This document shows, piece after piece, positions 20,101 to 58,778 of a stretch of 64,000 nucleotides of DNA. The DNA lies in the NCBI RefSeq assembly GCF_000003815.2, contig NW_023365728.1, positions 111,640 to 175,639 on the forward strand, given 5' to 3'. The translations under genes were made by a program, and so were the position numbers. This DNA comes from Branchiostoma floridae (taxonomy: Eukaryota > Chordata > Leptocardii > Amphioxiformes > Branchiostomatidae). The notes beneath the pieces were generated by a model. It was not told the DNA's origin, ran no database searches, and saw only the letters and a list, made by a program, of their open reading frames with translations. Within the stretch, counting starts at the first letter, position 1. Each line of letters opens with the position of its first letter.

Positions 20101-21818
20101 GGATAGTTCTCGGTACCCGGTACAGAGTGGTGCAGGTTTGACTTGACTTGACTTTGACTTTATTGACGATGAGACAAGTCATTACATGGATCTGCCTAGG
20201 CAGCTTTGGGCCCCCTAGCGGCTAAACTGAGACTGAGTTAGGTTTTTTATATGAAAAGATTACTTTGTATTTGTATAGAAATGTGCGATACTATAAAATA
20301 AATGTGCATATGTCATATAAAAGCAACCTCCTTGATGAAAGTAAAAAGACCGTTTTGATAACTATGACAGCTCCGTTTCCGTGTTCCAGGGTTCATCTAT
20401 GACGCGCAGCTCTCCTACCAGGGAACCTACTTCTTCGCTGGAGCTCCCATGATCCTCGGCGCCTGTATATTATTCCTCATGCCTAACGACAATCAGACAG
20501 AACTGGACATGGCAGGGGTAAGTTTTTCTGTTTTCTTTTTGCACAATTTATCACTGAACCAAATTTAGTAGGTATTCCGTATTGTACTCATCATTCCGAT
20601 AAAGAAATGGAGTCATTGGTTTTGGCGTGCCTGTGTGCCTGTCTGTCTGTCTGTCTGTGTTTATGCGTATTTGTGGTCAGTACTAACCTCTGGATGGATG
20701 AGCAGTGACGAAGGTCAAGGTCGATTTTGGACCCCCGGGTGAGCGGCCTTGGTACTGCAGCAGAACTTTTTTTCGGTTTTTGTATCCTTTGTCCCAGCAT
20801 GCTACGGTCTTGATATACACATGTATATTGAGTATTCAGTGGTAGATCTAGGCAGCTTCTGATGTAAGAAAACGGTATAGGTTTGGCTTCCAGCAGCTTG
20901 TTATAATGGTGACAAATTGGCGCAGATTGATTGCATGGGGGGGGGGGGGGATGTCAAATAGTCTACACGGGGGGGTCCTTCGCAGACGTCTAGGAGCGCT
21001 GGCGTTTATTTGCTGGAGACCGCTGATTCGCGATTTTAAACATGGGCCATAACGCCGATTCCCTAATGTCGGAACTTCGCCGAGAAGGCGTCAGAGAACC
21101 TGGCCATGTTGAGAGTCTTGAGAATCGCGATCATAGAAGTCTGCGGATGATTGTGCCCTTCTCCACGCAAGGAGGTTAAAAAACCTCCTTGCTCCACGTT
21201 ATAATCAAAAGTCCATGACAGCAGAGTCGGCTCCAGGGCGAATGACTCAAGACTCTGTGTTTATGTCGCACCTGAAAATTGGCGCCGAGTTTATTGCATG
21301 AGGAGGGGGTCTCCTTCGCAGACTTCTTGGAGCGCTGGCGCTTATTCATTGGGTAGCGTTGTTTCGTGATTTTAAACATGACCAGATTCACTAATGTCGG
21401 AAAAACCTTAAATCGTTTTGGCACAGAGAAGGCATTAGAGCACCGGCCCATGTTGAAAATCGCCAATCAGCGCTCCCCCAGCAAATTAACTCCGGTGAAC
21501 GAATCATGACATGTTATAATCAAAAGTCCATGACAGCAGAGCCGGCACCAAGGCGGGGGGATAACTCCTGACTCTGTGTTTATGTCACACCTGCAGGCGG
21601 CTGATAGCGAGAAGACGCCGCTGAGACCAGGTGAGGGATATGGCGACACCTTCGCAGCGACTTCTGCTGACGAGAAGGGATACGGGGAGCGTTCCAAATG
21701 TGTGCGGATTACGTCTCCCGTGGATGATTATGGATATGGGGATCGTCCCGAATGTGTGCTTATTACGTCTCCCGTGGACGACTATGAAGTTATCTTTGAC
21801 AGGATATCCTCAGTGTAG
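13708..21818 (+). CDS. SLC16-like gene 1 (monocarboxylate transporter family, MCT8/10-like)
   Basis: Eight exons: 13708-13876, 16777-16950, 17723-18007, 18454-18641, 18819-18978, 19359-19565, 20390-20517 and 21597-21818. All have GT/AG borders and matching phases (1,1,1,0,1,1,0), giving 510 residues. The SLC16 signature DGGYGW lies at residues 12-17 before helix 1. Conserved MFS blocks follow: VDRMGCRKTA after helix 2, ILGHYFTTRLGLVNG, an NMRIWKNR cytoplasmic linker, GRMFWGRIGD, and YDMFGRRDAPQAIG. Twelve helices are expected in the plasma membrane. SLC16 proteins carry monocarboxylates, aromatic amino acids or thyroid hormone; the substrate here is unknown. The C-terminus contains two copies of an ITSPVDDY motif and ends ISSV, a class-I PDZ-like ligand. 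Start: first ATG in frame, with the signature 12 residues on. Odd: helices that occupy one exon in genes 2 and 3 are split into three here. Confidence 0.88.
14011..14160 (+). repeat. (GT)n microsatellite in intron 1
   Basis: A GT dinucleotide tract of more than 100 bases with a few TTTGTG and ATGTG interruptions. Apparent open frames over it on both strands are artefacts of low complexity. Confidence 0.95.
14161..16272 (+). other. Intron 1 of SLC16-like gene 1, no exon seen
   Basis: No coding segment. A fragment near 14580-14690 (CTGCCACCTTCCTCAGGGCG) belongs to a dispersed repeat that also occurs at 19.1 kb, 53.4 kb and 59.2 kb. The end runs into a 100-base gap at 16273. Confidence 0.5.
16273..16372. 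other. Assembly gap
   Basis: One hundred N in intron 1 of SLC16-like gene 1. The round size suggests a placeholder of unknown true length. Confidence 0.99.
16590..16705 (+). repeat. Partial copy of SLC16-like gene 1 exon 2 start with its acceptor region
   Basis: The stretch repeats the polypyrimidine tract and first ~60 exon bases of 16735-16850 (GGCCTGCAGCACC...CCCGCTAGCCGGC). Its acceptor has decayed: CTCGGCCTGG stands where the functional copy has TTTCAGCCTGG. The copies lie about 145 bases apart. Confidence 0.75.
17260..17359. other. Assembly gap
   Basis: One hundred N in intron 2 of SLC16-like gene 1. Confidence 0.99.
17473..17681. mobile_element. MITE with TIR CTGTAAATGCA and TA target
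   Basis: Both ends read TA-CTGTAAATGCA in inverted orientation (17471-17483 and 17671-17683). The interior is a set of inverted CGCGAACTTAAA-like blocks. A related copy occurs at 44532-44658, and one-sided copies at about 25936-26046 and 63341-63430. The TA target fits a Tc1/mariner-type element. Confidence 0.75.
19603..19990 (+). repeat. Tandem copies of SLC16-like gene 1 exon 6 end with splice donor
   Basis: The last ~90 bases of exon 6 (from GACATGTTCGGCCGG) plus the donor GGGTGAGAT are repeated at about 19603-19700 and again at 19735-19890. A short broken fragment lies at 19958-19980. The copies are separated by (TTTG)n tracts. The third is interrupted by a hairpin MITE at 19755-19825. 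Confidence 0.85.
19755..19825. mobile_element. 71-bp hairpin MITE, TIR TAGCCTGGTATCCAG, ~8-bp target duplication
   Basis: Arms reading CCTGGTATCCAGCCGTAATTA are inverted around a short loop. CGGAGGGA is present on both sides (19747-19754 and 19826-19833), and occurs once in the uninterrupted exon copies, so those serve as empty sites. Relatives at 44049-44139 and 48081-48188 carry 8-9 base duplications. Confidence 0.8.
20915..21560 (+). repeat. Duplicated blocks in intron 7 of SLC16-like gene 1
   Basis: A block with GGAGCGCTGGCG, ATTTTAAACATG and CTAATGTCGGAA occurs at about 20935-21110 and again at 21275-21450. A second block (GTTATAATCAAAAGTCCATG through TGTGTTTATGTC[A/G]CACCTG) occurs at about 21199-21275 and 21513-21596. 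The latter copy contains the true acceptor of exon 8; the former is a decoy lacking AG. Confidence 0.7.
21161..21198. mobile_element. Micro-palindromic insertion, copy 1 (24 bp, 7-bp direct repeats)
   Basis: The 24-base element at 21168-21191 consists of perfect 10-base arms CAAGGAGGTT/AACCTCCTTG around AAAA. It is flanked on both sides by CTCCACG (21161-21167 and 21192-21198). It belongs to the five-member family described in the findings. Confidence 0.8.
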
Positions 21819-22079
21819 ATCTGATGCGCTTTTATGCACATGTGTTTTGATAACTCCTTTTTTAACTCACGAATGGTTCTGGGAACCTTGTGGTGATTAA
21901 TGTTTATATAAATCTATATTTCGCCTTTTAAGGCCGTGGGAGCAGTGGGTTGAATTATTGTCCACTGGTCTAGGGCACGGTATCCACTACCTGCTCCCCA
22001 ACCGAAGTCAGTTTTGGTGGACTGAAGAAAGTCCAGTTTCCCTTTGCCAAAGACCAAACGTCTGATCCAAGGTCTCACC

Positions 22080-22256
22080 TAATCTCCAGGCAGATCCTGC
22101 GGTAGCATAAGATAGTATCAAAAGCTGGTAAAGTTAAGCCGGCTTAGGAGTGTCACTGTGTTTCACTACAAGGCAAACGGACACATTTTGACTGACTACA
22201 CTCATTGACCAGTTTAGTACTATCTTATGCCATCGTAGCATCTGCTTGGAGATTAG
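22080..22256. mobile_element. MITE with TIR TAATCTCCA(A/G)GCAGATCC and 8-bp target duplication
   Basis: The ends are TAATCTCC and GGAGATTAG. GTCTCACC is duplicated at 22072-22079 and 22257-22264. The interior carries inverted AAGATAGTATCAAAAGCTGG and CCAGTTTAGTACTATCTTA blocks. It is the first of five copies in the window; the 8-bp duplication suggests a hAT-type transposase. It lies in the 3' UTR region of SLC16-like gene 1. Confidence 0.85.
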
Positions 22257-22537
22257 GTCTCACCAGGCATGCCGGGAATCGAACTCGTGACGTCACGATG
22301 ACGTAACTTATAAGCACTCCAGGTGCATTCTGGGTTGCTACGTCACAATCCCTTCCGTGAAGGAGCGACGGATACAAATCATTAACGAGAAATATTTTTT
22401 CTCTCAGACTAATACTTTGCGAATGTTTATGTCGCGCTTTTGTGCAATGTTTACCCTGTTGCGATCGAAATGACATGTATGGTGCTATTTTATATGGTTT
22501 TCCGGGTAAGATGGAAGTGTATATACTGGTGACAAAA

Positions 22538-22578
22538 AATAAATCTATTGTACATAGTATGATGAAATTCTAAATAAA
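22538..22578 (+). promoter_or_regulatory. Polyadenylation signals of SLC16-like gene 1
   Basis: Two AATAAA hexamers at 22538-22543 and 22573-22578, followed by a T-rich and GTGTGT-rich stretch. They lie about 720-760 bases after the stop codon. Confidence 0.5.
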
Positions 22579-23009
22579 AGTATGGAGGGACATGACAAAT
22601 ATTTTTGTTTTTTTATACCTTATGTATATGTGTGCATATGTGCGTGTTCGCGTGTGTGTATGTTTGTGTGTGTTATTCAAGGCTATTTAGAAGAGATACT
22701 GTTACCAAAATAGGGATATTTAGCTCATTTGACTTCATAATAACTTTACCGTATCCAGCCCAACCATGTCTAGTTCCCATGTCTAGTTATAACACTTTTC
22801 ATTCTGACAGTAAGAGTCCGACAACGATGAAATCTTTGTACAATTAGAACATTGTATTGTTCATATAAATGTATCAACATGTACAGATAGAACAGTTCTG
22901 CATGAGGAACGAGTAACATCGTCAGTCAAGGAAAATCTGCTCATGGAGACTACACATTTAAAGAAAAACTTGAAACGAACGTTTCGAGTATTTTTTAAAT
23001 CAGTGACGA

Positions 23010-23222
23010 TAACGCTAGTTCACCTTTATTCGCGGGGTAACCTATATCCGATGTGTTAACAAAAACAGGTATTTAGGGGTATCAAGTGGGCGGATGGTTC
23101 TATACTGCAATAGTTTGAAATATTGTAATTTGAACCACCTTCTCTCGACTTGATATCCCCAAATGCCCTGTTTTCAAACACCGGATAAAGGTTACCCCGC
23201 GAATAAAGGTGAACTAGCGTTA
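23010..23222. mobile_element. MITE with long TIRs (TAACGCTAGTTCACC)
   Basis: The ends are inverted over about 40 bases (TAACGCTAGTTCACCTTTAT against its complement at 23183-23222), continuing imperfectly with GGGGTAACC and a central pair of inverted blocks. No clear target duplication beyond TA. It lies in the convergent intergenic region between genes 1 and 2. Confidence 0.75.
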
Positions 23223-24638
23223 GCTGTTTAAAGACAGTAAACTAATGGGGGGGGGGGGGGGTTATTGCGTCGCTCCTGGCGATCATTGCTTATTAACAAT
23301 CGGTAAAACAACGTTTAGTCCAGACAATAAGGCTAACATTACAATTTCTCAACATTCAATATGTGATGAACAGTTCCTAAATAATCATGATCAAAAGTGC
23401 AAAAACCCCACCTGGCCTCAACAACCTTTAAGTATATACACAAACATCGCAATAATGAATTACACAAATAGGTTCCAATTTTAAGCTTTAACAACGTGGC
23501 TTGTTTGAAAGAAGAAGAAAATATAGCACCATGGTGAAAAGTGTGAAAAGTTCAGATATACAAAGTTATGGGAGACGTTTTAGTGTTTAGCCCCACCATG
23601 CCCCACACGTACCAACCCGTATCCCACACGTACTCCCACCGTATCCCACACGTACCAACCCTTGTCACCTGTCCTGAGATCATAACTACGTATTAAACAT
23701 GTTTGTTATTCCAGCAAAGGACAAAACAGAAACCCTGATCAACAAAGTAACGATATAATATCTTACAAACAGAACATAAATATCATCTTTACTTTATATT
23801 TGTACTAACACATCAACATCTGTATATCATATAGCCCTTACTCTGTTAGAAGTGGCAACCCATATGCATCTAACTTGTTTGGTCAAAAGATTTTCAAACA
23901 TCTGCAGTAGTGTAAGTAGTTACAACTTTAGGTATATGTTGTGTACATTACTGTTAGATGTCATAAAACGTTAAAAACGTCACAGTTGCACGTGTACAAA
24001 CCCCGTGTAACAAGACACATCCGAAGCACACTGGGCCTGTACAGTCTGTAGGGCGGGGGTGACCTGGGATATCTTAGCATACACATTTCAGTCCGTTAAG
24101 GTGCCGATTTTCTAGCCGGATTTATTCCGGTGAAATTTGTCTTGGCAATTCAAGGCCCGAAAACAAACAAATTTGTTCCAACTGGCAAAAATCCTCTGGA
24201 ACAAAACTCTGAAAGGTTCCACAAATATAGAAATCTCATAATTTTTATCACTTCCTTCAACCAAGGAGCTTTTATATCAAAAGCTCCTTGCTTCAACAAA
24301 AATCATCCGAGGTCACAGACCATGGAACGCAATAGTTGGATATGTTTAACAAACTGGTTAAAATCACATTTTGATAATACAGGTTGAAGATAATTTAACT
24401 ATATGTGCATTACAACCTCTACAGCTCCTTGTAAAATGCGTTCATTATAATACATGATTTTTATGTCTAGTAATGACAGGATATGTAACGATTATGGTTC
24501 CTGGATCAGACTTCAACTGTAATTTCCAAAATTTCAACTCCAGTCTTTGCCAAGGAATGGGCAATCCACTCCTTCTGTGACGTCACGTTATGTAGATTGT
24601 ACACGTGACAGGTGAGCAGTGGATCATAAATTGCGTTA
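23223..24638. other. Intergenic region between convergent SLC16-like genes 1 and 2
   Basis: A run of 16-17 G (about 23245-23262) is followed by AT-rich DNA with no recognisable gene. The direct repeat CGTATCCCACACGTAC occurs near 23620-23660. One micro-palindromic insertion lies at 24255-24297. Confidence 0.5.
24255..24297. mobile_element. Micro-palindromic insertion, copy 2 (29 bp, 7-bp direct repeats)
   Basis: The 29-base element at 24262-24290 has perfect 12-base arms CAAGGAGCTTTT/AAAAGCTCCTTG around ATATC. CTTCAAC is duplicated at 24255-24261 and 24291-24297. Confidence 0.85.
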
Positions 24639-24644
24639 TTTATT
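24639..24644 (-). promoter_or_regulatory. Polyadenylation signal of SLC16-like gene 2
   Basis: AATAAA on the minus strand, about 250 bases after the stop codon of gene 2. Confidence 0.45.
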
Positions 24645-24891
24645 ACAAAAAAAGTCTGCATAACCGAAGCAGTGAGTCCTCATTTCTTGACTAAGACTGG
24701 AGTTGGGCATCGAAAATTTGGGCAAGTCTTTTTTTTTTCGTGTGTCGGAAATAAAAGTTAAACTCTCATCCAGAATGGCTTTTACCAAAACAGACGATCT
24801 TTCATGTGGACAGGGGAACGATTTTGTGAGGGAACAGTGACGACGTCACACCACGGACAGTGATGACGTAACACCACGAACTGTGCTGACG

Positions 24892-25459
24892 TCAGACCAC
24901 GGAGACGACGTCCACCACCTCCATGCGCTCGTCCTGTGGCAGCCAGACCAGGCTGTTGGACAGCGCGGAGTTCAGCTTCGGCAGGTGGCGCTTCGGCGTC
25001 AGGAACTTCCCGTCCTCTTCTATTGCCTCGATCTGTGGGAAACAGTAAACATGGTTAGAAACTATCAGACCAAACTTTGGCTTTGAGTTGAGGCTCCAGG
25101 GCAAGTCATTTATTCGAAGTACATACTACATGTAACACACACAGAGACACACAGAGACCCTTGAACACACACATACAAACACTCACACACACGCGGACAC
25201 ACACAGACACGTACAAACAGACACACACGTACACACACACACACACGTACACACACGCAGACACACACACACACAAACACAGACGCATATAGATAGATAG
25301 ACACAAACACACACACACACACCGCCCCAGCCCGTCATCACTATACCACACTCACCGCTATCTCCGCCGTCTCCTCACCACGAAGTGCATGATGACGGCG
25401 CTCACATACATACACACAGACACACACAGACACACACATACACACACACACACACACAG

Positions 25460-25493
<34 letters not shown>

Positions 25494-25600
25494 ACACACA
25501 CACAGACTGACAGACTCACCGCCATCTCCGCCGCGGCCTCGGCGTTCTGTCTCCTCACCACAAAGTGCATGATGACGGCGCTCACACAGACAGACAGACA

Positions 25601-25652
<52 letters not shown>

Positions 25653-28600
25653 CAGACTGACAGACTCACCGCCATCTCTGCCGCGGCCTCGGCGTTCTGT
25701 CTCCTCACCACGAAGTGCATGATGACGGCGCTCAGGATCAAAGGCACGCCGCCGAAGTAGTACGCGCCGTTATAGGACAGCGTCATGTCGTAGATCTGAC
25801 CTGGAGGGGGACAAAACAAGGTACGGTAAATCAACATATCCCGATATGTAAGTATACATTTTCTTTATTGCTAGTACTCGTTACGTTTCCTTCCTCCTGG
25901 GAAAAATACATGTACATGTGCTGTTTTATGAGAAAAGTTCGCGATGATTATGTTCTTCAGTCCGCAAATCTCTTTCTTTCAACCACGAACATTTTCTCCC
26001 CATCGTGAAATTATAGATATCCCCGCGAACATTTCCCATTCTAAAGTATGCTGAAAATCGTATGAACCTTGACAGTGATAGCTACATTAGCGTACCGATA
26101 AGATACAACACTGAGGGCACACACACCTGCGATGGGCATTCCCGCCATGAGAGGCAGACAGGCGAGGCCGAGGGTGAAGCCGAGGGCCTGGGACGCGTCC
26201 CTCGGGCCCACCAGGTCGATGGAGGCCGGGCCGAGGGTGGCCATGAGCGCGCCGTCGAACAGCCCGACGCAGACCGCCATGACGATGAGCGCGGGAAAGA
26301 CGGAGCACAGGGGAACCAGCAGGGAGGACACACCTGGGGGAGGGGGGCGGGAGAGGGTACACATTAATCATACTCTAAACAGGTCATGTCACATCAATAA
26401 TAACAACTATACACATTCCCCTAGTAGCCTCCAACCTCCCACATCAACTCACGGACATGGAAGTTCCGTGTTGACGGAGAGTAACACCTAGAGTAAGTTA
26501 AAGAGCCCACGACACTTATCGAAAACAGTAAGGTGGCCATCCAGTTTTGAGCGGATCAAATAAATCTGCCCGGATATGCAGCTTGTACTACTATGTAAAA
26601 AATAACTTTTGTTACGTCACGAGGCATTTAACCGAGTATGCAATACAAACAAACAAACAAACAAACATACAAACAAACAAACAAAAGGAGCTGCGCCTTA
26701 CCCATAAGAAACAGCCCGATCTGCTGCAGCCGGATCCTGCCGACTTTGGGCAGGTCCGAGATCTTGCCGAAGACGAGCCGGCCTGCCCCTGACGCCGCGC
26801 CCAGACACGTGACCAGGATGTGCGCGTCTGCCTTCGGGAACACCTGCTGGCTGTGCTTCACCTGTGGGAGAGAAGGGTGGAACGGGTTAGGAACGGCACA
26901 GAACATGGCTTTGTTTCACCTGCAGAAGGGAAGGGTGGAACGGGTTAGGGACAGAACGGAGCATGAACAGCTGGGAAAGGTCTCTCTTATTTACGATAAA
27001 TACTCCACTTCATGTACAAGAATACTGTTATTGATTGTCATTTCTGTCATGTTAGATTCCATTTGTATTGTCGAGTAGAGAGAATCCCTGACTGCCTGAG
27101 CCACACTTGGGCCTTTGGGGTCACCAATTAACTCCATCACGACAGGAGGAGCAGAGAGGCAGCCACGAACCGACTACACGCGAAAGGGCCGACTTTTTCA
27201 GACACCGTAATTCCTCTGACTGGAGCAAAGACAAAGACAGGATGCCCGAGGCTGACCTTAAATCCCCCCTACAAAATAAACCTCTCGTTAGCCTGCCGCA
27301 AACCGGGCTGCGTGAGGAGACACGAGACCGTCTGCGTGACAGCCTCGCACAAAACGGCCACAACAAACCCGGACTAGGCCGGAGCCGAGGTCTGTGTCCA
27401 TCCCGGGATTTCAGAGGGATGAGCGCTTCATCAACAGTTTAGTCTGCTGGCTTCAGGCGCCGGAAAATACGCCCTTTCGGCAGCTTACAGTCATGACTAG
27501 TCTCTATCAGACTAACTACGCTGGCTACAGGAAGATTATTTGTTTGGGGGGGTAGGGGGTTGGGGGTGTTTGGGGGGTTGTTCTCTTCATTAACATAGCG
27601 AGTAGGCGAGAGGGCACTTTAGACTTGCATATACAATGATACAAAAACGTAGGTATGACCAATGGCATGAAAGTTCATCTGTGTTGGTAAATGACATGAT
27701 GAACATGATGAAGAATGACTAAACCAATAACGGTCAGACGTTTAAGATAGCATCTACTTTCATCTTTCGTAAGTGACTGCTTTTTGGCGTGTCTTATTAC
27801 CTGGATGTCAACATTCGTCGACGAAGAAAGCCTAGAGTTCATCTAGCCAACACTTTTATTTGGGCTTGCCACAAATTTTGGACTGACTCCATCCGATTTG
27901 TTCACGGACCGGACGTAAGCAGTAGTGGACGGGTCCATTCCTGGAACATGGATTAAGAGCCGNNNNNNNNNNNNNNNNNNNNNNNNNNNNNNNNNNNNNN
28001 NNNNNNNNNNNNNNNNNNNNNNNNNNNNNNNNNNNNNNNNNNNNNNNNNNNNNNNNNNNNNNNNNNNNNNNNNNNNNNNNNNNNNNNNNNNNNNNNNNNN
28101 NNNNNNNNNNNNNNNNNNNNNNNNNNNNNNNNNNNNNNNNNNNNNNNNNNNNNNNNNNNNNNNNNNNNNNNNNNNNNNNNNNNNNNNNNNNNNNNNNNNN
28201 NNNNNNNNNNNNNNNNNNNNNNNNNNNNNNNNNNNNNNNNNNNNNNNNNNNNNNNNNNNNNNNNNNNNNNNNNNNNNNNNNNNNNNNNNNNNNNNNNNNN
28301 NNNNNNNNNNNNNNNNNNNNNNNNNNNNNNNNNNNNNNNNNNNNNNNNNNNNNNNNNNNNNNNNNNNNNNNNNNNNNNNNNNNNNNNNNNNNNNNNNNNN
28401 NNNNNNNNNNNNNNNNNNNNNNNNNNNNNNNNNNNNNNNNNNNNNNNNNNNNNNNNNNNNNNNNNNNNNNNNNNNNNNNNNNNNNNNNNNNNNNNNNNNN
28501 NNNNNNNNNNNNNNNNNNNNNNNNNNNNNNNNNNNNNNNNNNNNNNNNNATCGAAAGCGTGTTCAGCCCGCGCCTTGGAACAGGATGATGGAAGACCTTA

Positions 28601-37870: not shown

Positions 37871-37918
37871 TTTTTATCAAGGACGTTATATGAGAAGGGC
37901 TAACGTCCTTGTTTTTAT
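37871..37918. mobile_element. Micro-palindromic insertion, copy 3 (34 bp, 7-bp direct repeats)
   Basis: The 34-base element at 37878-37911 has perfect 11-base arms CAAGGACGTTA/TAACGTCCTTG around a 12-base loop. TTTTTAT is duplicated at 37871-37877 and 37912-37918. Confidence 0.85.
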
Positions 37919-40900
37919 AGACATTGTTGTCTCTATAAAGTACCTAACATTCATTCCAAGGCGGGTGAGTGCTTATTGCAATTGCTTAAATTAGTTTGAA
38001 ATATTTGAATAGTTGAAATAAATATTTTGAGGTTTTAATACTACGGCTTCTTGAAATTAAACATTTCCACAAAAAATGTAAAAAAAAAAAAACACGTTGA
38101 ACTTGATTTGATATCGCTTAAGCCTTCAAAGAATCACCTACCTGGACATTCGCCTATCTTTACCTACCCTCTAAAGACGCTCAAAACCGCATGAAAATGC
38201 TTTTAAATCTGAATATAGTTTCCTAGGCTTTGTGAAATGCACGGTTTACACAACACACTGCAACGCGGCGACAGAAAAAACGCCAAATACAAGACATGTA
38301 TTACACAAAGCGCTGCAACACCAGCTACCACAGAGAACCCGCCGAGTCAGCATTACCGGAGTGCGGGCCTGTAACCTGAGACCACCGCTGCGTGACGTGA
38401 GTCATGGACCGGCCAGGCATGACTCAGGAAGGACCACCTGGCAGACTTTCTGTCAGGCAATGCTCTACCTTAGCCTGGATACCATAACCCAACCTCAAAA
38501 TATATCTTTCGTGTGATAGATACTTGAGATCGGGCTGGGGTTTGGTAACCAAGCTAGCTCTATCCTGGGTCTACCCTGGCTCTACCAGTCACATATAGGC
38601 TCCAAAAGTTACTATGATTTATAAAGTGGTGCTGTACTGAGATATTGGACAACATAGACAGACGATCACTGAATGTTACAGTTCTCCAGACGAGATTGAC
38701 CACCTGGCCCACTTTCTGCACGGCAACGCTCTACCCTGGCTCTGTCAGTCTCCAAAAGTTACTATAAAAGTGGTGCTGTGCTGAGAAATTGAAACTGAAA
38801 ACTGAAGATCACTGAATGATACTCTAGAGGAGTCGCCATAGAACTCCTATAGAACTCCCTAAGCAGCAAACTGTCAATTTGGCAAATTCTAATATTCTTC
38901 AGCAGCTTATGGCTGAGGCTACCGTCCAACGTACGGTCTTGCTGACAAATAAGGAGATTTTGTAACATCTCAAAACCAGCTCCAAAGCCATAATGGATAA
39001 AGCGCACCGTAAAAGCTTTACCGTGACCATGACAGGATGCATGTTTTCAGAAAGAATCACCCGCAAAAGTTCATTCAACCGCCGATTCCGATATTTCTAC
39101 ATAGCAATAGGACGTCCCCTTCCCAATATCTACACTCATTCATACCCATAGCTCGCCTCCGCTTCGGCGATAAAGACTGAGATAGAAAAACCGTCACCTC
39201 TAGTAGCTCTACCAAGGACGTTAACTTATATAACGTCCTTGCCTCTACAAGGGAAATAATGGTAGCTTCTACTTTTAAAAAAGTCAGTACGGAACGAACA
39301 ACAAACACTCGCATTCATCACAGAAAGCGATCCGACCCGTGCGCACTCCCGATCCCAAGACGGCCCTTCAAATTATCCGTAATTTTCCCACAAGATTCGT
39401 CAAGACTGGTTCTATGCTAATAACGGTAAAATGGGTCACGTAAACACATTATGTATGCATGTCCGTGCAAGTCCCGAGACTCGTGGGACCGGGTGTGCAG
39501 TTTGGGACATTTCTAAAGAAACTACTTTACCAGAACCTCGCGGAGAGTAACACAACAGCAGCCGTGTGCGGTTTATGCAAACATGAAATGATTCTTTTTT
39601 TTTTCTTCGCGAAGGTCACAGCGCCTTATCAAAGGAGACAAAAGTTTGACAGTTGATCAGTTTTTCCTGATAAAAGCTCCTTGGCTTGCCCTAGCCACGG
39701 TTTTTCTTTCTTATCTACGCCGGCTCACTACCATCCTCAATACTTCTGCTCCGTTTTGTAGGCAGGCAGGTTTTGTATCAAAAGTGACGCAAGATATATT
39801 TCAGACCACCTTATTTGTAATAAAACACAGTTCCCGTATCCAGGCCCACACTGCTTCCTGTTGTTGCTAGCGAGTGCCCGGCTGCCTTATATGCATAAGG
39901 AGCAGGAAGAACGGACAATAAGAGCTGCTCTAGCGACCTCTCCACACACGTCCTTAATGTTCCATTCTCCTCCTTAACTCGTGCAGGACGAATCGAAGGC
40001 CTGCAGCAGCATGTTTAAAAGTAAAACACAGCGCCCTGCCCACAGCGAGCCTTCACCAAACCTACATGCTGCATGATGCAACCTTTAGACACGGTTTGTG
40101 ATAGAAACCCGAGACTCTGCCAACAAACAAGATACCTACAACTGTAAGCAGCGCGATAGCGTTTACGCATAATCCAGTAGGAAAAGCGTAGGTAAAAGCC
40201 CGAAAGCAGAACTTACGTTGCTAGCCGAGGCGGTGCTAGTGGGAGATGTTTTTACGGGAGCTGTTTTTCCTCTGCATCCTTCAGCCGCAGCGCAGCGTCC
40301 AGAAGCGTCAGCAGCCCGGGCTTTCCTCGGGAAAGTGGCCAGATCAGCTGGCGGACCCGCTATCAGCTGATCGCGTACAAAGGAAATCCTCTCCCTTAAC
40401 GGGAGGAAAGTCTGTACTAAAGATTACGTAATTATTCACAGCGTACCGATCTAACCGGTATTGAAAACGTCTTTTACAAATCTTTACACCCAGTTTTATA
40501 TAAAAATCTAGGAACTAGTATTCAAGTCATTTTGTTGTGCGTTAAGCCTTCGTATAGCGAACATATGCTCTGTGTAAATAACGGACGCGGTACATAGTTC
40601 CTCCCGTTAATCATTATGCATGGAAGGTGGGCCGTGGCTGCTGAGGTTGCATCATCCCCTGGTCACGTGACGGCGTTGTTTGTGCAGAATCTCCGCTCCA
40701 AGCAGAGGTGAGGTGAGCTGGGTTTTTACGCCGTTCCATGAGTTTTTATCGTGCTAAGAAAGCCCGATAATTACCAAATAAAAAAATGGAAAATCGCCGG
40801 AAAATCGCTTTATGATGAGCATGATGAATAATGAAACCCTCGAGTAACAGAATACGATGTCTTCGTTCCAAATAAGGAGATGCTCCAAATAAGGCAGTTC

Positions 40901-44395: not shown

Positions 44396-44531
44396 CGAAA
44401 TAGGTCGCCTGAAAAACAGTAGACATTGGCCAAATCCTCCATGTAAACAGACTTACACGCATGTCAGACATGCACATTGTACTCCTCAGATCCTCTGACA
44501 TGTCAAGTTGGCCAATTTCTGGTTGGAGATA

Positions 44532-48080: not shown

Positions 48081-48188
48081 TAGCCTGGTATCCAGCCGTA
48101 ATATAGCTTCCGAGTCTCTTCTCTCCTTTCAATTGCCAAAGAGGAGAGAAGAGACTCGGAAGCTTTATTACGGCTGGATACCGGGCTA
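48081..48188. mobile_element. 108-bp hairpin MITE (TAGCCTGGTATCCAGCCG), inserted after the segmental duplication
   Basis: Arms of about 45 bases (TAGCCTGGTATCCAGCCG, then CTTCCGAGTCTCTTCTC) are inverted. TCACCGACT is duplicated on both sides. Copy 2 of the segmental duplication reads straight through near 49480, an empty site. Confidence 0.85.
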
Positions 48189-50321: not shown

Positions 50322-50459
50322 ATTCCGGAGTCCCAAAGTTTCGTAAAAGACCTTAAATAATTTCCATCCATATTTCACCACTGTCGTCCCTGGAGAGCAC
50401 CGCGGGGAATGTTGGAACCAGCAGCAGCAGAATGGTCGTGTCGTGTTCGATGCTTCTCT

Positions 50460-51371: not shown

Positions 51372-54300
51372 CTACACAGACGATACTTTATCGTAAATCA
51401 GGATCATATCCTCCTCCGTGTTGTATATATGCATGACGCTCCCGGCATCCAACGCGAACTCGCCGTCAAGGTCCGTACACTGCGTCCCTACACTTTTCCT
51501 GGCGGGATGATCGGTAGGTGGCGCCTTTGTATCAGCAGCAAGAGCTTTTTCTTCACCCGGGACGTTAGCAGCATCATTCTAGTTTTGAGAAAAGATAAGG
51601 GACATAAACATTGGAAGAATGAATAAATGGATGGATTATTGAATGGATCATTCACATCACAGAACACTTAGCATAACATATGCACTGTGTAGCTTACAAA
51701 CATAAACAAAGCATTATAAACGCCGATGAAAGTTAGACATTCAGGTAATAAGATACGCCAAGGCAAAAGCACTGGATATGATTTTGGAAACGGTCAGACG
51801 TTTCAAACAACATCTGTTATCTTTCGTCAAAGGCTTATTTTCCTAACAGGAAAGATAAAAACCGACTCACCTGTTTCTCGCCCCCCTCCCCCGCGGAGAA
51901 CCTGCCCAGCGACACCAGAAACAGGATGCACGTGCCGACGATGGGCGGCGCGCCTGCGTAGAAGAACGCCGCGTTGTAGGACCCTGTGTAGTCGTAGATC
52001 CACCCTGAAGCCAGTGAAGGCAGGAAAAAACGAACAAGTCACGCCACTGTGCTTATCTCTTTTCACAACGTGCGCTGCGACCTTCCCTCCTCTGATATCC
52101 AAGGGCGCCATAGGGAGGACTTTACAGGAAAAACAATGTAAGTCCATTTGTATATCCTTATAGTTTGCCACTCAATATTGGACCACCCTGCCGAAGCTGT
52201 AGGGCTCTGAGGCTTTACCGTACACATGTATCTATGACTGAAGTCCCAGCGGCGCCCGACCGTGAGTGGCACGGAGGCCAGGACCAGCAGGAGCCGAGGC
52301 TGTAGGGCTGATATGGCCGTGTATGGCCGTATATCTATGGCCGTATATGGCCGTATATGACAGTATATCTAAGACTGACCTGCCAGCGGCGGCCCCATCG
52401 TGAGCGGCACCGAAGCCAGGCCCAGCAGGAAGCCGGAGCTGTAGGGCTGATACGGCCGTATATCTATGGCCGTATATGGCCGTATACTAGTATCTATGCC
52501 TGTATGGCTGATGATGTCTAACCTGCCAGCGGCGGCCCCACCGTGAGCGGTACGGAAGCCAGGCCCAGCAGAAAGCCGATGGCCTGCGAAGCGTCCTCCG
52601 GCCCCACAAGGTCGAAGGCGATGGGGCCGATCAGCGCCACGAAGCAGCCGTCGAACACGCCGAGTACCAGGACCGCGCACACCAGCGCGTAGTAGTGCCG
52701 CAACACGGGCAGGAGGGTCGTCACGATACCTGGGGAGATACACACTAGTCAAACACGCCGAGCACGAGAACGGCGCACACTAGCGCGTAGTAGTGCCGCA
52801 ACACGGGCAGGAGGGTCGTCACGATACCTGGGGAGATACAGACTAGTCAAACACGCCGAGCACGAGAACGGCGCACACCAGCGCGTAGTAGTGCCGCAAA
52901 ACGGGCAGCAGGGTCGTCACGATACCTGGGGAGATGCACAGTAGTTAAACACGCCGAGCACGAGAACGGCGCACACTAGCGCGTAGTAGTGCCGCAACAC
53001 GGGCAGCAGGGTCGTCACGATACCTGGGGAGATACACACTAGTTAAACACGCCGAGCACGAGAACGGCGCACACTAGCGCGTAGTAGTGCCGCAACACGG
53101 GCAGGAGGGTCGTCACGATACCTGGGGAGATACACGTACAGTAGTGAGGTAGGGCTGATAACACGCCGAGCACGAGAACGGCGCACACCAGCGCGTAGTA
53201 GTGCCGCAAAACGGGCAGGAGCGTCGTCACGATACCTGGGGAGATACACACTAGTTAAACACGCCGAGCACGAGAACGGCGCACACTAGCGCGTAGTAGT
53301 GCCGCAAACGGGCAGGAGCGTCGTCACGATACCTGGGGAGATGCATATTGATTAGCACAGTCAGCGATGTGTGAAAAACGGAAAACACTGCCACACACTT
53401 TCCCTATGACTGTCCTTGGTGCTGAACGGCCTTCCCTTCCCTGAACTGTTTCATTAGGTTGGTAAGTCACTGGATAACAGAGTTCTCTGCACACAACAAC
53501 CAAGAGTTTTATTCAAGACCGACGTTGCAGTGTCTGTCACGTTCCTCATGGCAATTCGGAATAATTCTTAAGGCCTTAAAAGATATCTTGTATTCAAATC
53601 GTAGTACTTCTATTCCCCGAAGTACTGAGGCGAGGAGATCTAACTCTTTTAGTACAATTGTCAACACAATCAGATATTACCCATCCCTGTTCTTCAGAAA
53701 TTGACGATTTTTAAGCGACCTACCGATGACGAGGAAAGAGAGTTGCTGCAGCATAATCCTATTGACGCATGCGCAGTCCGAGACCTTGCCGAACACCAGC
53801 CGGCCGACCCCCGAGGCGGCGCCCATGTACGTCACCAGGGCCGCGCCGTTCGCCTTGGGCATCACGTGGCGCACATAGTTCACCTGTGGGGATATAGGGT
53901 CATGGCGGTTATAGGTACATGTACGTCACCAGGGCCGCGCCGTTAGCCTTGGGCATCACGTGACGGACATAGTTCACCTGTATGGAGATAGGGACATGTC
54001 GGATATAGGTACATGGTGGTTATAGGTACATGGCGGACATAGGTATATGGTGGATATAGTTCACCTACGGGGATATAGGGACATGGCGGAGATAGCCACA
54101 TGGCGGATATAGGGACAAGGCGGACATAGTTCACCTTTGCGGACATAGGCGCATGGCGGATATGGGTACATGGCGGATATGGGTACATGGCGGATATAGG
54201 TACATGGTCATCATTAGCGTAAATGTAAAATGTAACGTTACTTGTATTCCCTAGTACAAATGTAGAAGAAAAGTCGAAAATCTCCAGTACTTACTATGTG

Positions 54301-56670
54301 TACGTACGGCACGAAGTATCCAAACAGCGCGAAAGGAACACCTATGGCCCAAATAACGTATCTTCTGTTCCGCCATATTCTCAAGTTCAGGTGCTTTTTG
54401 ACCTTCTCCACGAATGTTCTTCTTCTGTTGTTCCCTGCAGTCCCGTTCTCCAACGCCCGGGGGCGCTTCTCCAGTAGCGGCGCGTACGCGCAGGCGCACA
54501 GCACCAGAGTGCCCACCAGCCCGCTGAGCGCGCGGAATGTCGGGAAGAGTCCGAGTTCCCTGAGCATGAAGCGGAGCAGTATCGGCAGCACCATGGTGAA
54601 CAGGCTGCTGCCGAACGTCACCAGGCCGTTCACCAGACCCATCCGCCTGTGGAAGTAGTGCCCGAGGATGACCAGGGAGGGGGTGTAGGCGAGAGACGAA
54701 CCCAGCCCCACCAGCACCCCGTAGGTGAGATACAGCTGCTGCAGGTGGGACACGGCGGAGCTGGACAGCATTCCGATAAACGCCACCACTCCCCCCGCCA
54801 CGGCCGTGGGTCTGCAGCCGAACTGGTCCGTCAGCACGCTGGCCAGGGTCGAGCAGAAAAACGTCACTCCTATGGCTGTAGAACCCACCCAAGCTGCAGA
54901 ACAACACAAAACACAACTCAACATGTGATCTACTCGGTCACATGCAGCCGAACTGGTCCGTCAGTACACTGGCGAGGGTTGAGCAGAAGAACTTCACTCC
55001 TACGGCTGTAGATCCCACCCAAGCTGCAACAACACAAAACACAGCTCAACATGTGATCTACTATAGCTGTAGATCCTACCCAAGCTGGGGAACACAAAAC
55101 ACAAACGTTAACGTCACACCGATAGCTGTGGAGCCTACTAATGCTGAGGACAACATGTGACCAACTCAGTAGGTGCGCTAACCTACCTATAGGCATAGAG
55201 CCCACCCAATCTGAGGAACAGAGAACACAAGAATTTATCTTTACCAGATAGCCTATGTCGCCCCCCGTCTCGGTACAATCATAAAACACTATCTAGGTTT
55301 GCCGTATGAGGCAAGATAATCTCCAATATATAATGTTTCTCATAGTCACTCCTATGCTTACATGGCAGCATTAGAGACCTAAAGCGGGTGCCAACTGTGT
55401 CAGGAAATTGCCCAGGGTTTGCGAATTCCCTTTCTGACGTGCCGCCCCGTGCGACGCATTTGCGTATAAAGCCCAGATAAGCAGGTTATTGGAAATCAAC
55501 GTGAAAAAAGAAAGACGTAAAAAGCTTAAGGTTGAAGATCTCAACGAGACATGCACCGTAATAAAAGGATATTCACTTATGATACTTTCAAGTGACATAT
55601 TGCGCCGATTGCTGCCGGTTTGGCCTCAGGATGTTTTCTCCAGCTTGTTTTGGATACTTTGAGGTGTTTTTATGGGATTTCTATCCGTTCTGGTTTTCTC
55701 TATGTATACCAGTGACAGGCAATCAAAACGAAAACCTGGCATATTATGATTGAAATGAAAGTCAAAACAAACGTCTGGAAACCGTCCAAAACAAGCCGAG
55801 CCTAACACAATACATCGATGACACCATACTAATCACCGTATACATGCCCCTTTGCACACTGGCGTGAATATTGGGGTAAAAAATGTACCTATTACAATTT
55901 TCCCGCCACTGAGGAGATACGTATGATGCATGCCACCAAGACAAAGTCTTACACAGCGCTTATTCCAATTTTCCTACCAACGTTGCAGGAGACATCTCAC
56001 CTCACCTCACCGGTCCCATAGCCTCACCGGCCGTAGGGGCAGCAATGCCATCAACACATCTACACTAGAACAGATTGACACCGTAAAGTCATAAACCATA
56101 ACCCCATGTCGTGTACCTGTCTGGAAAGCGTCTGACCCCGGGAAGGCCTGTATGTGAACTATCATCTATGTACATGTATCATAGTGTATGTACATGACAA
56201 ACTCTTACATATGGGTTTTAATGTGTACCTGTCTGGAATGCGTACCGGGCCTGCACCTGATGATACTGTACATAAACCACTAACACATGCCGCGTACCTG
56301 TCTGGAAAGCGTCTGACCCCGGGAAGGCCTCCAGCAGCGCCACGAACAGAACCCCGGACGTGTTGAGCAGCCCGAAGATCGTCCCGTTGGTCCACATGGC
56401 GGCCAGACACACGGCCCAGCCGTACCCGCCTTCGGGAGGCCCGCGCTGTGCCCCCGACGGGCTCCGATCAGCGGCCCGGTCCGGCACATCAGTGGCCCAT
56501 CCGTACCCGCCTTCGGGAGGCCCGCGCTGTGCCCCCGACGGGCTCCGGTCAGCGGCCCGGTCCGGCACATCAGCGGCCCAGCCGTACCCGCCTTCGGGAG
56601 GAACCCGCTGTGCCCCCGACGGTCTCCGGCTAGCGGCCCGGTCCGGCAAATCAGCGGCCCGGTCCGACAT
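51372..56670 (-). CDS. SLC16-like gene 3 (MCT8/10-like) with triplicated N-terminal signature
   Basis: Six exons in transcript order: 56298-56670, 54295-54893, 53724-53883, 52523-52729, 51871-52004 and 51372-51578. All have GT/AG borders and phases as in gene 2, giving 559 residues. The blocks closest to vertebrate MCT8/MCT10 are seen here: LVILGHYFHRRMGLVNG, GRLVFGKVSD, and IAFDLVGPEDASQAIGFLL with SVPLTVGPPLAG. Those proteins carry thyroid hormone or aromatic amino acids; the substrate here is inference. The N-terminus has EGGYGW three times (26-31, 53-58, 80-85) in 27-residue units; only the last abuts helix 1. The last exon is acidic and ends DKVSSV, matching DRISSV of gene 1. The start ATG is preceded in frame by TAG nine bases upstream. 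Several exon borders are flanked by decoy copies. Twelve helices are expected in the plasma membrane. Confidence 0.9.
52240..52445 (-). repeat. Two copies of SLC16-like gene 3 exon 4 end, with minisatellite
   Basis: The exon 4 end (plus-strand CCAGCGGCGGCCCCACCGTG...GGCCCAGCAG) recurs at about 52378-52432 and, more diverged, at 52247-52302. GTATATGGCCGTATATC repeats lie between. The nearer copy keeps a donor-like border (GCAGGTCAG); the farther is decayed. Confidence 0.8.
52741..53345 (-). repeat. Six extra ~98-bp copies of SLC16-like gene 3 exon 4 start with acceptor
   Basis: The acceptor core (plus-strand CGATACCTGGGG) lies at 52725 in the true exon and at 52823, 52920, 53018, 53117, 53230 and 53328 in the copies. 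Spacings are 98, 97, 98, 99, 113 and 98. Each unit holds about 75 exon bases encoding IVTTLLPVLRHYYALVCAVL, an intact CCCCAG acceptor and ~25 intron bases. In most units the exon part runs into an in-frame TAG. Confidence 0.93.
53346..53723 (-). other. Intron 3 remainder of SLC16-like gene 3
   Basis: Contains a dispersed repeat fragment (53395-53545, related to 59.1 kb) and no exon. Confidence 0.5.
53920..54210 (-). repeat. Copy of SLC16-like gene 3 exon 3 start plus ACATGGCGGATATAGG minisatellite
   Basis: 53924-53980 repeats the first ~50 bases of exon 3 with its acceptor (plus-strand TGGGCATCACGTG(A/G)CG...CATAGTTCACCTG). It is followed by about fifteen imperfect 16-18 base units with GGACATAG or GGATATAG. 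Confidence 0.8.
54930..55225 (-). repeat. Decaying copies of SLC16-like gene 3 exon 2 start with acceptor
   Basis: The first copy (54941-55032) repeats about 80 exon bases and GCAG acceptor with few changes. Shorter copies lie near 55066-55090, 55120-55150 and 55190-55215, each ending in a CCACCCAA(G/T)CTG-like border. The order of decay increases away from the exon. Confidence 0.85.
55226..56112 (-). other. Intron 1 of SLC16-like gene 3
   Basis: No exon. It holds one CAAGCAGAGG-family MITE remnant at 55627-55803 (TTGTTTTGGATACTTTGAGG against its approximate complement). Confidence 0.5.
56113..56250 (-). repeat. Two copies of SLC16-like gene 3 exon 1 end with donor
   Basis: The plus-strand block GT(G/A)TACCTGTCTGGAA(A/T)GCGT recurs at 56112-56150 and about 56223-56245, copying the final exon 1 codons (DAFQT) and the GTAC donor at 56296. 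The farther copy also includes CTGACCCCGGGAAGGCCT. Confidence 0.85.
56415..56660 (-). repeat. 81-bp in-frame tandem triplication in exon 1 of SLC16-like gene 3
   Basis: Units start at plus-strand CGTACCCGCC (56421, 56502, 56583), exactly 81 bases apart. Each encodes PSGAQRGPPEGGYGWA(V/T/A). The outermost unit is slightly diverged (SRRPSGAQRVPPE). Confidence 0.92.
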
Positions 56671-57540
56671 CAAGAGCTAACAGTACCAGGCAGACTGACT
56701 GCCATGGCTATGGCCCCGGGGAAAACAATTTGAGTGTTTGGCATAAATGCCGCGAGCTGGCTCTCTTGACCAATTCTGCCTATTTTGCCGAAGTCTGCGA
56801 TTCGTCCCCGTCAGAAGGCCTGGTAGAGGCTATACCTACTCCCGTACGCCCGTAAGAAGGCCTGGTGGCGCCCGTAAGAAGGCCTGGTGGAGGCTACATA
56901 CTCGATCCCGCACGTCCGTGTAAGAAGGCCTGGTGGAGGCTAATCAGGTTACAGGCATCACTGACCCACAGTAGAAGCCCCTCCTCTCCGGTTAGCTCAG
57001 TGAAACAATTGACGCACCGCGGCCCGACCCGTCCTGTGTTATGTTAGCTGCTTATGTTACTGACAAGTCGCTGTACAATAAGAATAACCCTGGAGCAATG
57101 CCAAGATCACATTCGGCCCAACATATCACATTCGGTCCTGCATACCGCCCGTATGCCCTGCCGCATTCACAGCTTACACAAGCGCACTTCCCAGGAAACG
57201 CCCCCGTATCCGATATATACACGCCTCCCAAACACAGAACGTTATCGACAAAATTAGAAAATATCGATGATGACAGCCGGCGATCAATACGCGCGGTTGC
57301 CGCATTGGGAAGAGCATGACGCAACATACCAATCGGATTGTACCATGTCAACACGGGAGGGGGGTGATGAATACAGAACTACTAATGAATCGTTCTTTAT
57401 CTATTTACAGCCATGACCTCAATGTTTCACTCATGACCTCAATGAAAAGCGGCCAGCAGGACGATTTGAGCTTTCATGAATAAATAAAGGTACAAATTAA
57501 TCTCCAAGCAGACGAACCGTTGGCACGGCAACATGCAAAA
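56671..57540. other. Upstream region of SLC16-like gene 3
   Basis: Contains three short direct copies of GTAAGAAGGCCTGGTGG(A/C)G (about 56810-56940) and otherwise nothing recognisable. The promoter of gene 3 should lie here, but no clear core element is visible. Confidence 0.45.
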
Positions 57541-57548
57541 CAGTATCC

Positions 57549-57592
57549 AACTGGCTTCAGTCCATGTATTTCATCATCATGTCGCTGTTGGA
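57549..57592 (-). pseudogene. Possible remnant of the Scm-type SAM exon
   Basis: The minus strand reads [10 protein letters not shown] in frame, then a one-base difference breaks GLK. About 33 of 38 bases match the SAM exon at 62160-62198 (plus strand TTCATCATCATGTC shared). A MITE abuts its 5' side. Part of the match is low complexity, so this is tentative. Confidence 0.4.
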
Positions 57593-57756
57593 TAGTCTCC
57601 AAGCAGACCCTACGGTACCTTGGAGATAATATCAAAGCTGGCAAAGGAGTATAGCCGGCCAAAGGCAGTCAAACGGGCACCCGGTGCCGCTATACCAAGT
57701 CCCTTGCCAGCTTTGATACTATTTCTAAGGCACCGTAGGGTCTGCTTGGAGACTAG
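57593..57756. mobile_element. MITE with ends TAGTCTCCAAGCAGACCC and 8-bp target duplication
   Basis: CTGTTGGA flanks both sides (57585-57592 and 57757-57764). Inverted interior CTTGGAGATAATATCAAAGCTGGCAA and its approximate complement. It is a diverged member of the TAATCTCC family. Confidence 0.85.
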
Positions 57757-57896
57757 CTGTTGGAAACTGTTTGGCTCTTTGATGCCGCCGGTAGATCTGA
57801 TTGGACCTTACTTTGAATATCTTGAATATAATACACAAACCTAAACCCTTTCCCTGACGCCAAGACGGGCTCGATCATGCCAAGCAGTGGTAATTA

Positions 57897-57968
57897 CTCT
57901 CCAAGCAGAGAAGTAATAGTAATTACCCTTCCCATGCTCGAAGGGTAATTACTCTGCTTGGAGAGTAA
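57897..57968. mobile_element. Short palindromic MITE (TACTCTCCAAGCAGAG)
   Basis: Two TTACTCTCCAAGCAGAG ends face each other across a short AGGGTAATTAC-containing centre, with TA on both outer sides. About 72 bases. Confidence 0.7.
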
Positions 57969-58005
57969 TTACCCTTCGAGCATGGTTTTAAAACAAAGTC
58001 ATTAT

Positions 58006-58730
58006 TATAGGGCTTATTCACGTGACGTCATCACCCCTTGCTCCCGTGCGCCGCCATCTTGGGGTCCATGCGCTACACAGTACAGCGACTGTACAGCGTG
58101 GGTCCCCAAGTGTCCGAAGAAAGTGAAGTGGGTTGCACGATGTTTGACTATACAAAGAGTCTACAACCTTAAATCTTATTTTCACTACATAAGTCGGGTA
58201 GAAATCACCCATTTTCCCATTATCAGTGAGGGAAAGTTTGACCCACTCCGGGTCCCCGAGCACGGCAACAGTGACAGTGGAAAGTTATCTGACCCATCGT
58301 TTACTGTCTTGTTCAGATACAAAATTTGTACTACACACATTCGTTCTGAAAATTCTACCAGTAAGATGAGCTCTACTTATGGCAGAAACTTACATTTGTT
58401 TCCGAGTCGTAGCACTAGTACATGACTTCGTTCCCGTCCCGGCTTTGCTTGTTTGTTACACGAGAAACGCGAAACAAACTTAACTGTTACCCGATGTGTG
58501 TAGGCTTTACCAGTGCTAGACCAACATCCCACCACAAGATAGCACACCCTGATTATGAACCTAAACGCTTTGAAGGGAAATTGTGCGTTGCATAAGACAT
58601 ATTTTCAATTTTACGGAGAGTTGCATAGCGAGCCGCTGTGAGCCTCGCTCAAAGTGGACCCCAAAATGGCCGACTTCGCTCGTTGCCATGGCGTCCGGAG
58701 GGTGGATCACGTGACTGAATAAGCCCTATA
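58006..58730. mobile_element. 725-bp TIR element (TATAGGGCTTATTCA)
   Basis: The left end TATAGGGCTTATTCACGTGAC is inverted at the right end (58706-58730). A second inverted pair, GCCATCTTGGGGTCCA and GGACCCCAAAATGGC, lies inside. The open frame 57958-58425 that crosses its left end has no transposase motif, so the element looks non-autonomous. Confidence 0.7.
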
Positions 58731-58778
58731 GATCTACCAAGGAGCTTTTATCAGCTGATAAAAGCTCCTTGGATCTAC
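58731..58778. mobile_element. Micro-palindromic insertion, copy 5 (34 bp perfect palindrome, 7-bp direct repeats)
   Basis: The 34-base element at 58738-58771 is a perfect palindrome with 17-base arms beginning CAAGGAGCTTTTATCAG. GATCTAC is duplicated at 58731-58737 and 58772-58778. It abuts the right end of the TIR element at 58006-58730. Confidence 0.88.

Follow-up and report, generated by a model that had tools for sequence, protein, structure and literature searches.

Short CAAGGA palindromes in an amphioxus genome as probable excision footprints of P-like DNA transposons

Several described mobile elements resemble the sequences considered here. The Drosophila P element has 31-bp terminal inverted repeats (TIRs) and a transposase whose RNase H domain is split by a GTP-binding insertion, features that recur in our source elements, and it is cut 17 bases inside the TIR, a position suggested here by the lengths of the retained arms; unlike the 8.4-8.7 kb sources found here, in whose scanned frames THAP had no match, it is 2.9 kb long, makes an 8-bp target duplication and has a THAP domain (PMC7776569). 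Repair junctions left by excision of P{wa} in Drosophila have the same order as the palindromes of this study, namely a duplication, at most 17 bases from each TIR end meeting at a microhomologous or templated joint, and the duplication again; those junctions were, however, laboratory-made with an 8-bp duplication (those of Table 1 coming from Rad51 (spn-A) mutants), whereas in the genome examined here they are natural, run to thousands and have a 7-bp duplication (PMC2895639). Within the same superfamily, 1360 (Hoppel/ProtoP) makes a 7-bp duplication at the palindromic target motif GTTNAAC (PMC3276498), and it is by duplication and motif alone that we liken it to the present sources, which carry a RAG1 N-terminal-like domain. 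Galileo likewise makes 7-bp (in a few cases 8-bp) duplications at a palindromic motif, GTATTAC, although its TIRs are long and internally repetitive and its target consensus differs in mid-motif (PMC4168063). N-RAG-TP of Aplysia is a mobile element bearing RAG1 N-terminal-like sequence, and is comparable in that sequence alone, being described as consisting wholly of it (PMC8355894). Last, the Dada superfamily makes 6-7 bp duplications and has a Branchiostoma member, yet it targets small-RNA genes, while the present sources are marked by TNP-like (P) domains, and their target motif is degenerate (PMC3706591). In the open-licence literature, as covered by titles and the beginnings of abstracts, we found no paper on amphioxus MITEs, 7-bp families or excision footprints that describes such palindromes, and none in the open-licence literature that treats RAG1, the P superfamily and Branchiostoma jointly.

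The window, by which we mean the whole 64,000-nucleotide stretch analysed, holds five short palindromes between 7-bp direct repeats, to none of which a strand is assigned. One of GG type (21161..21198; 24-bp palindrome at 21168-21191) lies between perfect copies of CTCCACG. Two are of GC type: the one at 24255..24297 (29-bp palindrome at 24262-24290) stands between perfect CTTCAAC repeats, its arms matching 14 and 12 bases of the TIR of the C19 element described below, and the one at 58731..58778 (34-bp palindrome at 58738-58771), with perfect GATCTAC repeats, is made of exactly 17 + 17 outer bases of that same TIR. The remaining two are of CG type, for which a source element was looked for and not found; the first (37871..37918; 34-bp palindrome at 37878-37911) has perfect TTTTTAT repeats, and the second (39206..39248; 29-bp palindrome at 39213-39241), whose locus is single in the assembly by genome search, has GCTCTAC and CCTCTAC, agreeing at 6/7 positions. 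Perfect arms measure 10, 12, 11, 11 and 17 bp in order of position. These coordinates, repeats and arm lengths bear out the initial annotation, which had reported arms of 10-17 bases and four perfect repeats out of five. When the window was scanned for 8-bp inverted repeats separated by up to 3 kb and directly bordered by perfect direct repeats of 6-11 bp, four of the 12 matches were these palindromes.

The search was extended to the window's own assembly (513 Mb, 431 contigs) with the pattern CAAGGASSTTN{0,30}SSTCCTTG, which spans 18-48 bp. It gave 3,049 matches in forward and 3,025 in reverse orientation, the pattern read backwards giving 6 and 8, and it appears that the genome contains thousands of such scars. 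The forward matches comprise 2,268 at 18-34 bp and, by subtraction, 781 at 35-48 bp, a further 197 lying outside the pattern at 49-79 bp; the size of 24-34 bp given initially thus fits the window copies and is too narrow for the genome as a whole. Twenty random 10-kb chunks of contig C1 contained no palindrome of regular form, with about 1.2 expected from the genome count. A P-type excision footprint requires the target duplication on both sides. All 61 distinct places among the matches listed were examined, every one of them in the first 6.8 Mb of C1 and some not independent (L052 and L053 are identical duplicates, L030 and L031 paralogues). The flanking heptamers agreed at 7/7 positions in 31 places, at 6/7 in 16 and at five or fewer in 14; agreement at six or more, found in 47/61, occurred in only 28 of 3,660 (0.8%) cross-paired flanks, and for the places listed the earlier claim of repeats beyond chance holds. 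By length, perfect repeats numbered one at 4 bp, none at 5 or 6 bp, 31 at 7 bp, two at 8 bp and none at 9-11 bp. Six further GC-type copies gave 7/7 in five cases and 1/7 in one, and L002, which falls outside the genome pattern and is not among the 61, gave 7/7.

Long elements with the same termini and a transposase, the search for which had been proposed initially, are present in the assembly. The PF21787 profile has three matches there and none in any of 14 control genomes; the PF21788 query matched neither the assembly nor the controls. One PF21787 match (8.6e-22, accompanied by PF21789 at 3e-8) lies inside the 8,442-bp C19 element, in which both the 31-bp TIRs and the CTCTAAC duplications are perfect, and another (6.8e-21) lies in the C11 element, between CAAGGAGGTTGAATAAGGG... 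ends 8,684 bp apart and flanked by perfect AAGTCAT duplications. In both, the CAAGGA termini stand within longer inverted repeats and the domains are of P type. The PF21788 domain of C19, whose profile query had itself found nothing in the assembly, is split over two frames with weak scores, 5.2e-4 (below its cut-off) and 1.9e-5 (just above), and one further frame of C11 scanned for the insertion domain gave no match. Read from these profile matches, the source elements have the RNase H core split by a GTP-binding insertion expected of the P superfamily. Nine of nine further C19-type end pairs, which belong to shorter relatives, have perfect 7-bp duplications, and the 7-bp duplication is present in 11/11 intact elements checked, ranging from about 1.2 to 8.7 kb. 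The 7- or 8-bp duplication and GT...AC palindromic motif expected of the superfamily are also found, as duplications from 46 scars and 11 intact elements, counted on both strands, yield GTTWAAC. An unexpected feature is a RAG1 N-terminal-like domain (RAG1_imp_bd) in both transposases. A THAP domain, accessory to catalysis, is usual at the N-terminus in the P superfamily; as the frames scanned in the C19 and C11 sources yielded none at E up to 0.05 and have RAG1_imp_bd instead, we term them P-like and not canonical P elements; the C19 protein had no significant match among PDB sequences, the best being a RAG1 chain at E 0.22. As candidate sources, Dada was rejected on account of its target specificity (PMC3706591), and hAT, Tc1/mariner and Harbinger for their wrong duplication length; the initial annotation had set aside these last three, a judgement that is supported.

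We consider it very probable that each palindrome is a footprint left when a P-like DNA transposon was excised, and is not itself a mobile unit. A transposon with CAAGGA TIRs, about 1.2-8.7 kb long, would insert and duplicate 7 bp of target; its transposase would later cut one strand at the boundary between TIR and host and the opposite strand some 17 bases into the TIR (in a second family, probably about 19-21 bases in). Each side of the gap would therefore keep a 7-bp copy and a 3' single-stranded TIR tail, and the two tails, of the same sequence on opposite strands, would be end-joined, sometimes through microhomology and sometimes with filler from nearby DNA, to give two abutting TIR ends between 7-bp repeats. 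The staggered cut we infer from arm lengths, and its enzyme and the repair pathway are inferred as well. Two published observations count against such a reading, in that flanking deletions were larger in assays of zebrafish THAP9 (PMC10983969) and most excision products of wild-type flies begin by copying from the sister (PMC2895639).

The arms and joints are those to be expected of a footprint, in which no more than about 17 bases should remain from either end of a longer TIR-bearing element. Among the matches listed, 70 GC-type places each keep at least 15 bases of a 31-base TIR, and the longest arm is 15-17 bases in 59, 18-20 in 10 and 27 in one. In a GG-type subfamily, scored against inferred TIR strings and not an intact copy, the longest arm is 16-22 bases in 77/80 and longer in 3/80, an edge that is deeper and less sharp. 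Joints are variable, with 39 types among the 70 GC-type places; the commonest, of 31 bp (13/70), and a 24-bp type (3/70) fit the pairing of two 17-base tails, while a recurrent 33-bp type and a second 31-bp type (6/70 each) are unexplained by it. In a few copies the filler is templated locally: in L127, 17 retained bases of one end are followed by a copy of 20 bases from its own left flank, L120 has 13 bases of its own right flank, and L028 and L070 have 11 and 9 bases of their own flanks. Against this, a word of at least 9 bases is shared with the copy's own flank in 6/66, compared with 3.6% of cross-pairs, four of the six being TIR or scar words.

Three other accounts must be set against excision. 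The initial annotation had favoured ultra-short mobile DNA. On such a view the palindromes would be micro-MITEs moved in trans by the P-like transposase and inserted with 7-bp duplications, and both the duplications at most copies and the recurrence of identical inserts (the 13/70 and 6/70 above) would suit this idea. We nevertheless hold it to be very unlikely, as the joints are many and the arm edge falls at 17 bases, filler comes from the copy's own host flank, and one duplicated site holds two different palindromes. Most of the TIR, and all that lies beyond it, is also missing from the palindromes, and P elements require internal binding sites for movement. This evidence, though indirect, suggests that the short copy was not the unit transposed. 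What stands of the initial claim of genuine insertions is that a transposon inserted with a 7-bp duplication; the palindrome as its mobile unit is not sustained, holding only the outer part of the TIR. The alternative mentioned there, residues of longer elements, is the better reading, and more exactly they would be residues of excision.

Residues might also arise without excision, by internal deletion of resident elements through interrupted gap repair, and here too duplications and TIR remnants would persist; internally deleted P elements of 0.5-2.8 kb do arise (PMC7776569), and L108 and L130, which keep 34 and more than 40 bases on one side, resemble such products. Breakpoints should then be spread along the TIR and interior, whereas forward matches number 3,049 at 18-48 bp but 197 at 49-79 bp and the GC family has its edge at 17, and we give this origin very little credence. 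That the palindromes serve some other role, for instance as structured regulatory sites lying between short repeats by chance, might be entertained for their symmetry and high copy number, but the flanks vary among copies and yet agree within a copy in the 47/61 places noted, and the ends are common to full transposons; the likelihood of this last account is next to nil.

The site with two contents is the pair L113/L114, aligned over 895 columns at 78% identity, with GTCAGAC common to both and different palindromes within. In the one assembly, no intact element and scar were seen at one site between alleles or species. No alternative allele of two window loci was found in it (40/196 candidates being scored at one), and flank comparison among the fetched loci gave no empty site, only a paralogous pair and an identical duplicate.

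On balance we think it likely that amphioxus harbours a P-like lineage with a RAG1 N-terminal-like zinc domain in the place of THAP, excised so often that end-joining scars outnumber recognisable intact ends very roughly 10:1, and that its genome is a natural archive of double-strand-break repair, recording thousands of independent events. If so, a RAG1 N-terminus would have been combined with P-type catalysis in a single transposase, independently of the Transib/RAG core, which would bear on the origin of that part of RAG1. One contender for the smallest mobile DNA would be struck off, and if the palindromes are excision scars they should not be annotated as MITEs; what would be gained is a resource of thousands of natural scars recording how long 3' tails are joined in vivo in an animal germline.

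Ends standing alone were also observed. The window has one of GC type on the minus strand (39667..39683), in which 17 outer TIR bases (18 with the following G) give way to unrelated sequence and for which no partner was found within 9 kb; it is possibly a one-sided scar. Eleven lone TIR-like ends had no partner with matching duplications within 9 kb, and L012:4104, taken as a lone end, is a short palindrome with its last base mutated. Of six lone ends displayed, 17 bases are kept in three, namely L023:9144, the window end at 39667 and L017:2507, for which no intact TIR is known for comparison, and not in the other three.

The five palindromes of the window and their 7-bp flanking repeats match, on checking in the sequence, the description in the initial annotation. 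Throughout the assembly that holds the window (513,431,437 bases in 431 contigs), the pattern CAAGGASSTTN{0,30}SSTCCTTG (18–48 bp) gave 3,049 forward and 3,025 reverse matches, against 6 forward and 8 reverse for the same pattern read backwards as a control; since a palindrome is able to match both strands, these matches represent anywhere from about 3,049 to 6,074 separate places. Flanks were examined at all 61 distinct places among the matches listed, which fall within the first 6.8 Mb of contig C1 and are not fully independent (the duplicated loci L052/L053 and L030/L031 are among them). The flanking 7-bp repeats were perfect at 31 of these places, agreed at 6/7 in 16 and at 5/7 or less in 14, and perfect repeats of other lengths numbered one (4 bp), none (5 and 6 bp) and two (8 bp). 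When flanks were paired across loci as a control, 6/7 or better was reached in 28 of 3,660 cases. Six additional copies of the GC type, to which window scars 2 and 5 belong, agreed at 7/7 in five cases and at 1/7 in one. The palindrome places are genuine insertion sites carrying a 7-bp target duplication. At L029 and L071 the repeats span 8 rather than 7 bp, and Galileo, described with mostly 7-bp duplications and the motif GTATTAC, likewise has a few copies with 8-bp duplications (PMC4168063). A weak motif, GTTWAAC, is common to 46 scar and 11 intact duplications with both strands counted, and may be compared with the GTTNAAC described for 1360 of the P superfamily, which also has a 7-bp duplication (PMC3276498). 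The density of scars in the window (5 in 64 kb, with 0.38 expected from the genome-wide count) may be a matter of selection, the window having been picked by a reader who saw them.

Candidate source elements were located with the P-transposase RNase H model PF21787, which has three matches in the assembly. The best lies within an 8,442-bp element (C19:10308832-10317273) with perfect 31-bp terminal inverted repeats (TIRs), CAAGGAGCTTTTATCAGGAGGAGAGAGCAAG, and perfect duplications CTCTAAC; the second lies within an element (C11:17071456-17080139) whose ends, starting CAAGGAGGTTGAATAAGGGAAAGGAGTCGGCTCATAAT, are 8,684 bp apart, with duplications AAGTCAT. The third (G000:C6:14994104-14994325) is shorter, with a 123-residue open frame. 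All nine additional C19-type end pairs checked have perfect 7-bp duplications, their spacing being about 1.2 kb in eight and 4.1 kb in one (C5:13467869); of these only L092 was read completely, and it is 1,187 bp long and agrees with the C19 element at either end. Searched as an exact string, 25 bases of the C19-type TIR occur at 48 places in the assembly, one inside the 51-bp scar L108, and a narrower pattern for short GC-type palindromes gave 398 forward and 387 reverse matches, an excess of scars over intact ends that is only approximate, as the exact search misses diverged intact ends. For scars of the CG type, among them window scars 3 and 4, no source element was found in the assembly.

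The initial annotation had read the palindromes as ultra-short mobile elements. That reading yields to one in which they are excision scars of P-like transposons, on the grounds of a limit to arm length, variable joints, filler copied from the flanks, and one duplication with two different contents. We regard the excision-scar reading as very likely correct, our confidence being slightly lowered by unexplained joint types and by a less sharp second (GG-type) family. P transposase is described as cleaving 17 bp inside its 31-bp TIR, leaving 17-nt 3' extensions (PMC7776569). The C19-type TIR is perfect over 31 bases, but a search for GC-type palindromes with one arm of 15 bases or more (291 forward matches in total) shows much shorter arms: among the 70 separate places listed, the longest arm was 15 bases in 4, 16 in 21, 17 in 34, 18 in 6, 19 in 3, 20 in 1 and 27 in 1, and window scar 5 (58738-58771) holds exactly 17 + 17 TIR bases. 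In the GG-type subfamily, for which TIR strings were inferred, the longest arm was 16–22 bases at 77 of 80 places listed (at least 16 bases kept) and longer at 3, peaking at 21 as counted and at 19 without ambiguous overlap; here cleavage probably falls 2–4 bases further inside the TIR, or else tail filling differs. In L108 the two sides retain 34 and 17 bases, and in L130 one side retains over 40. Of six lone ends displayed, three retain 17 bases and three do not. Duplications at 6/7 or better flank 13 of 19 long or odd copies chosen from the matches listed. In keeping with the arm limit, forward matches in the assembly become fewer with length, numbering 2,268 at 18–34 bp, 781 at 35–48 bp (by subtraction) and 197 at 49–79 bp, and a number of the last that were listed are nested or duplicated scars. 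L064, L077, L080 and several 49–79 bp places listed are scars beside or within other scars, or scars accompanied by near-perfect copies of themselves, which suggests that a single site went through several rounds of insertion and excision, or of templated repair.

The joints between the arms fall into 39 types among the 70 GC-type places listed, the commonest (31 bp) at 13 and a 24-bp type at 3. Pairing of two 17-base tails ending in CAG would give both, the former with an internal mismatch; two other recurrent types, at 6 of the 70 places each, are not accounted for by tail pairing. In L127, 17 bases of one end are followed by a 20-base copy of its own left flank and then by TIR, and L120 repeats 13 bases of its own right flank within the palindrome, both being drawn from a set chosen by eye for odd structure; L028 and L070 repeat 11 and 9 own-flank bases. 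A word of at least 9 bases is common to copy and own flank in 6 of 66 copies (the 61 places and the window's five), against 3.6% of cross-pairs, and in four of the six the word belongs to a TIR or a scar. Flank-copied filler is modest in number and specific where present. Furthermore, the loci L113 and L114, paralogues with 78% identity across 895 alignment columns, have the duplication GTCAGAC in common and differ in their palindromes, which is not readily expected of an inherited micro-insertion. No pair with the element in one allele and a scar in the other was seen, two window loci having been searched.

Scars of this kind are already known from fly experiments. In the described repair junctions of Drosophila P{wa}, the two duplications enclose up to 17 bases from each TIR end, which meet at a microhomology or an insertion; templated insertions occur, and polymerase theta plays a part. 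The junctions listed come from Rad51-deficient flies, and most wild-type products begin with copying from the sister (PMC2895639). Larger deletions are described for zebrafish THAP9 assays (PMC10983969). Among listed literature on amphioxus MITEs, 7-bp families and excision footprints, we found no description of such scars in the natural abundance seen here. The mechanism being known from flies, what is out of the ordinary is the scale, together with a link to the N-terminal part of RAG1. RAG1_imp_bd (Pfam PF12560, the RAG1 importin-binding/N-terminal family) matches the N-terminal part of both P-type transposases, that of C19 (L088:2191-4491) at 7.1e-8 and that of C11 (L112:1099-3499, minus strand) at 7.3e-10. 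In the former it lies with the RNase H domain in one 767-residue open frame, and in the latter in a different frame from that domain; the frames scanned in either transposase gave no match to THAP. RAG1 N-terminal-like sequence is also described for a mobile element of Aplysia, N-RAG-TP, which may or may not be comparable (PMC8355894).

Two further features of the window may be recorded. A repeat at 58438-58730 ends where scar 5's 7-bp duplication begins and has dozens of copies elsewhere (86–99% identical), most alignments stopping near query position 293. Long palindromes without CAAGGA ends lie at 2603-2643, 19758-19821, 48105-48164 and 57932-57985, with arms of 18, 24, 23 and 24 bp.
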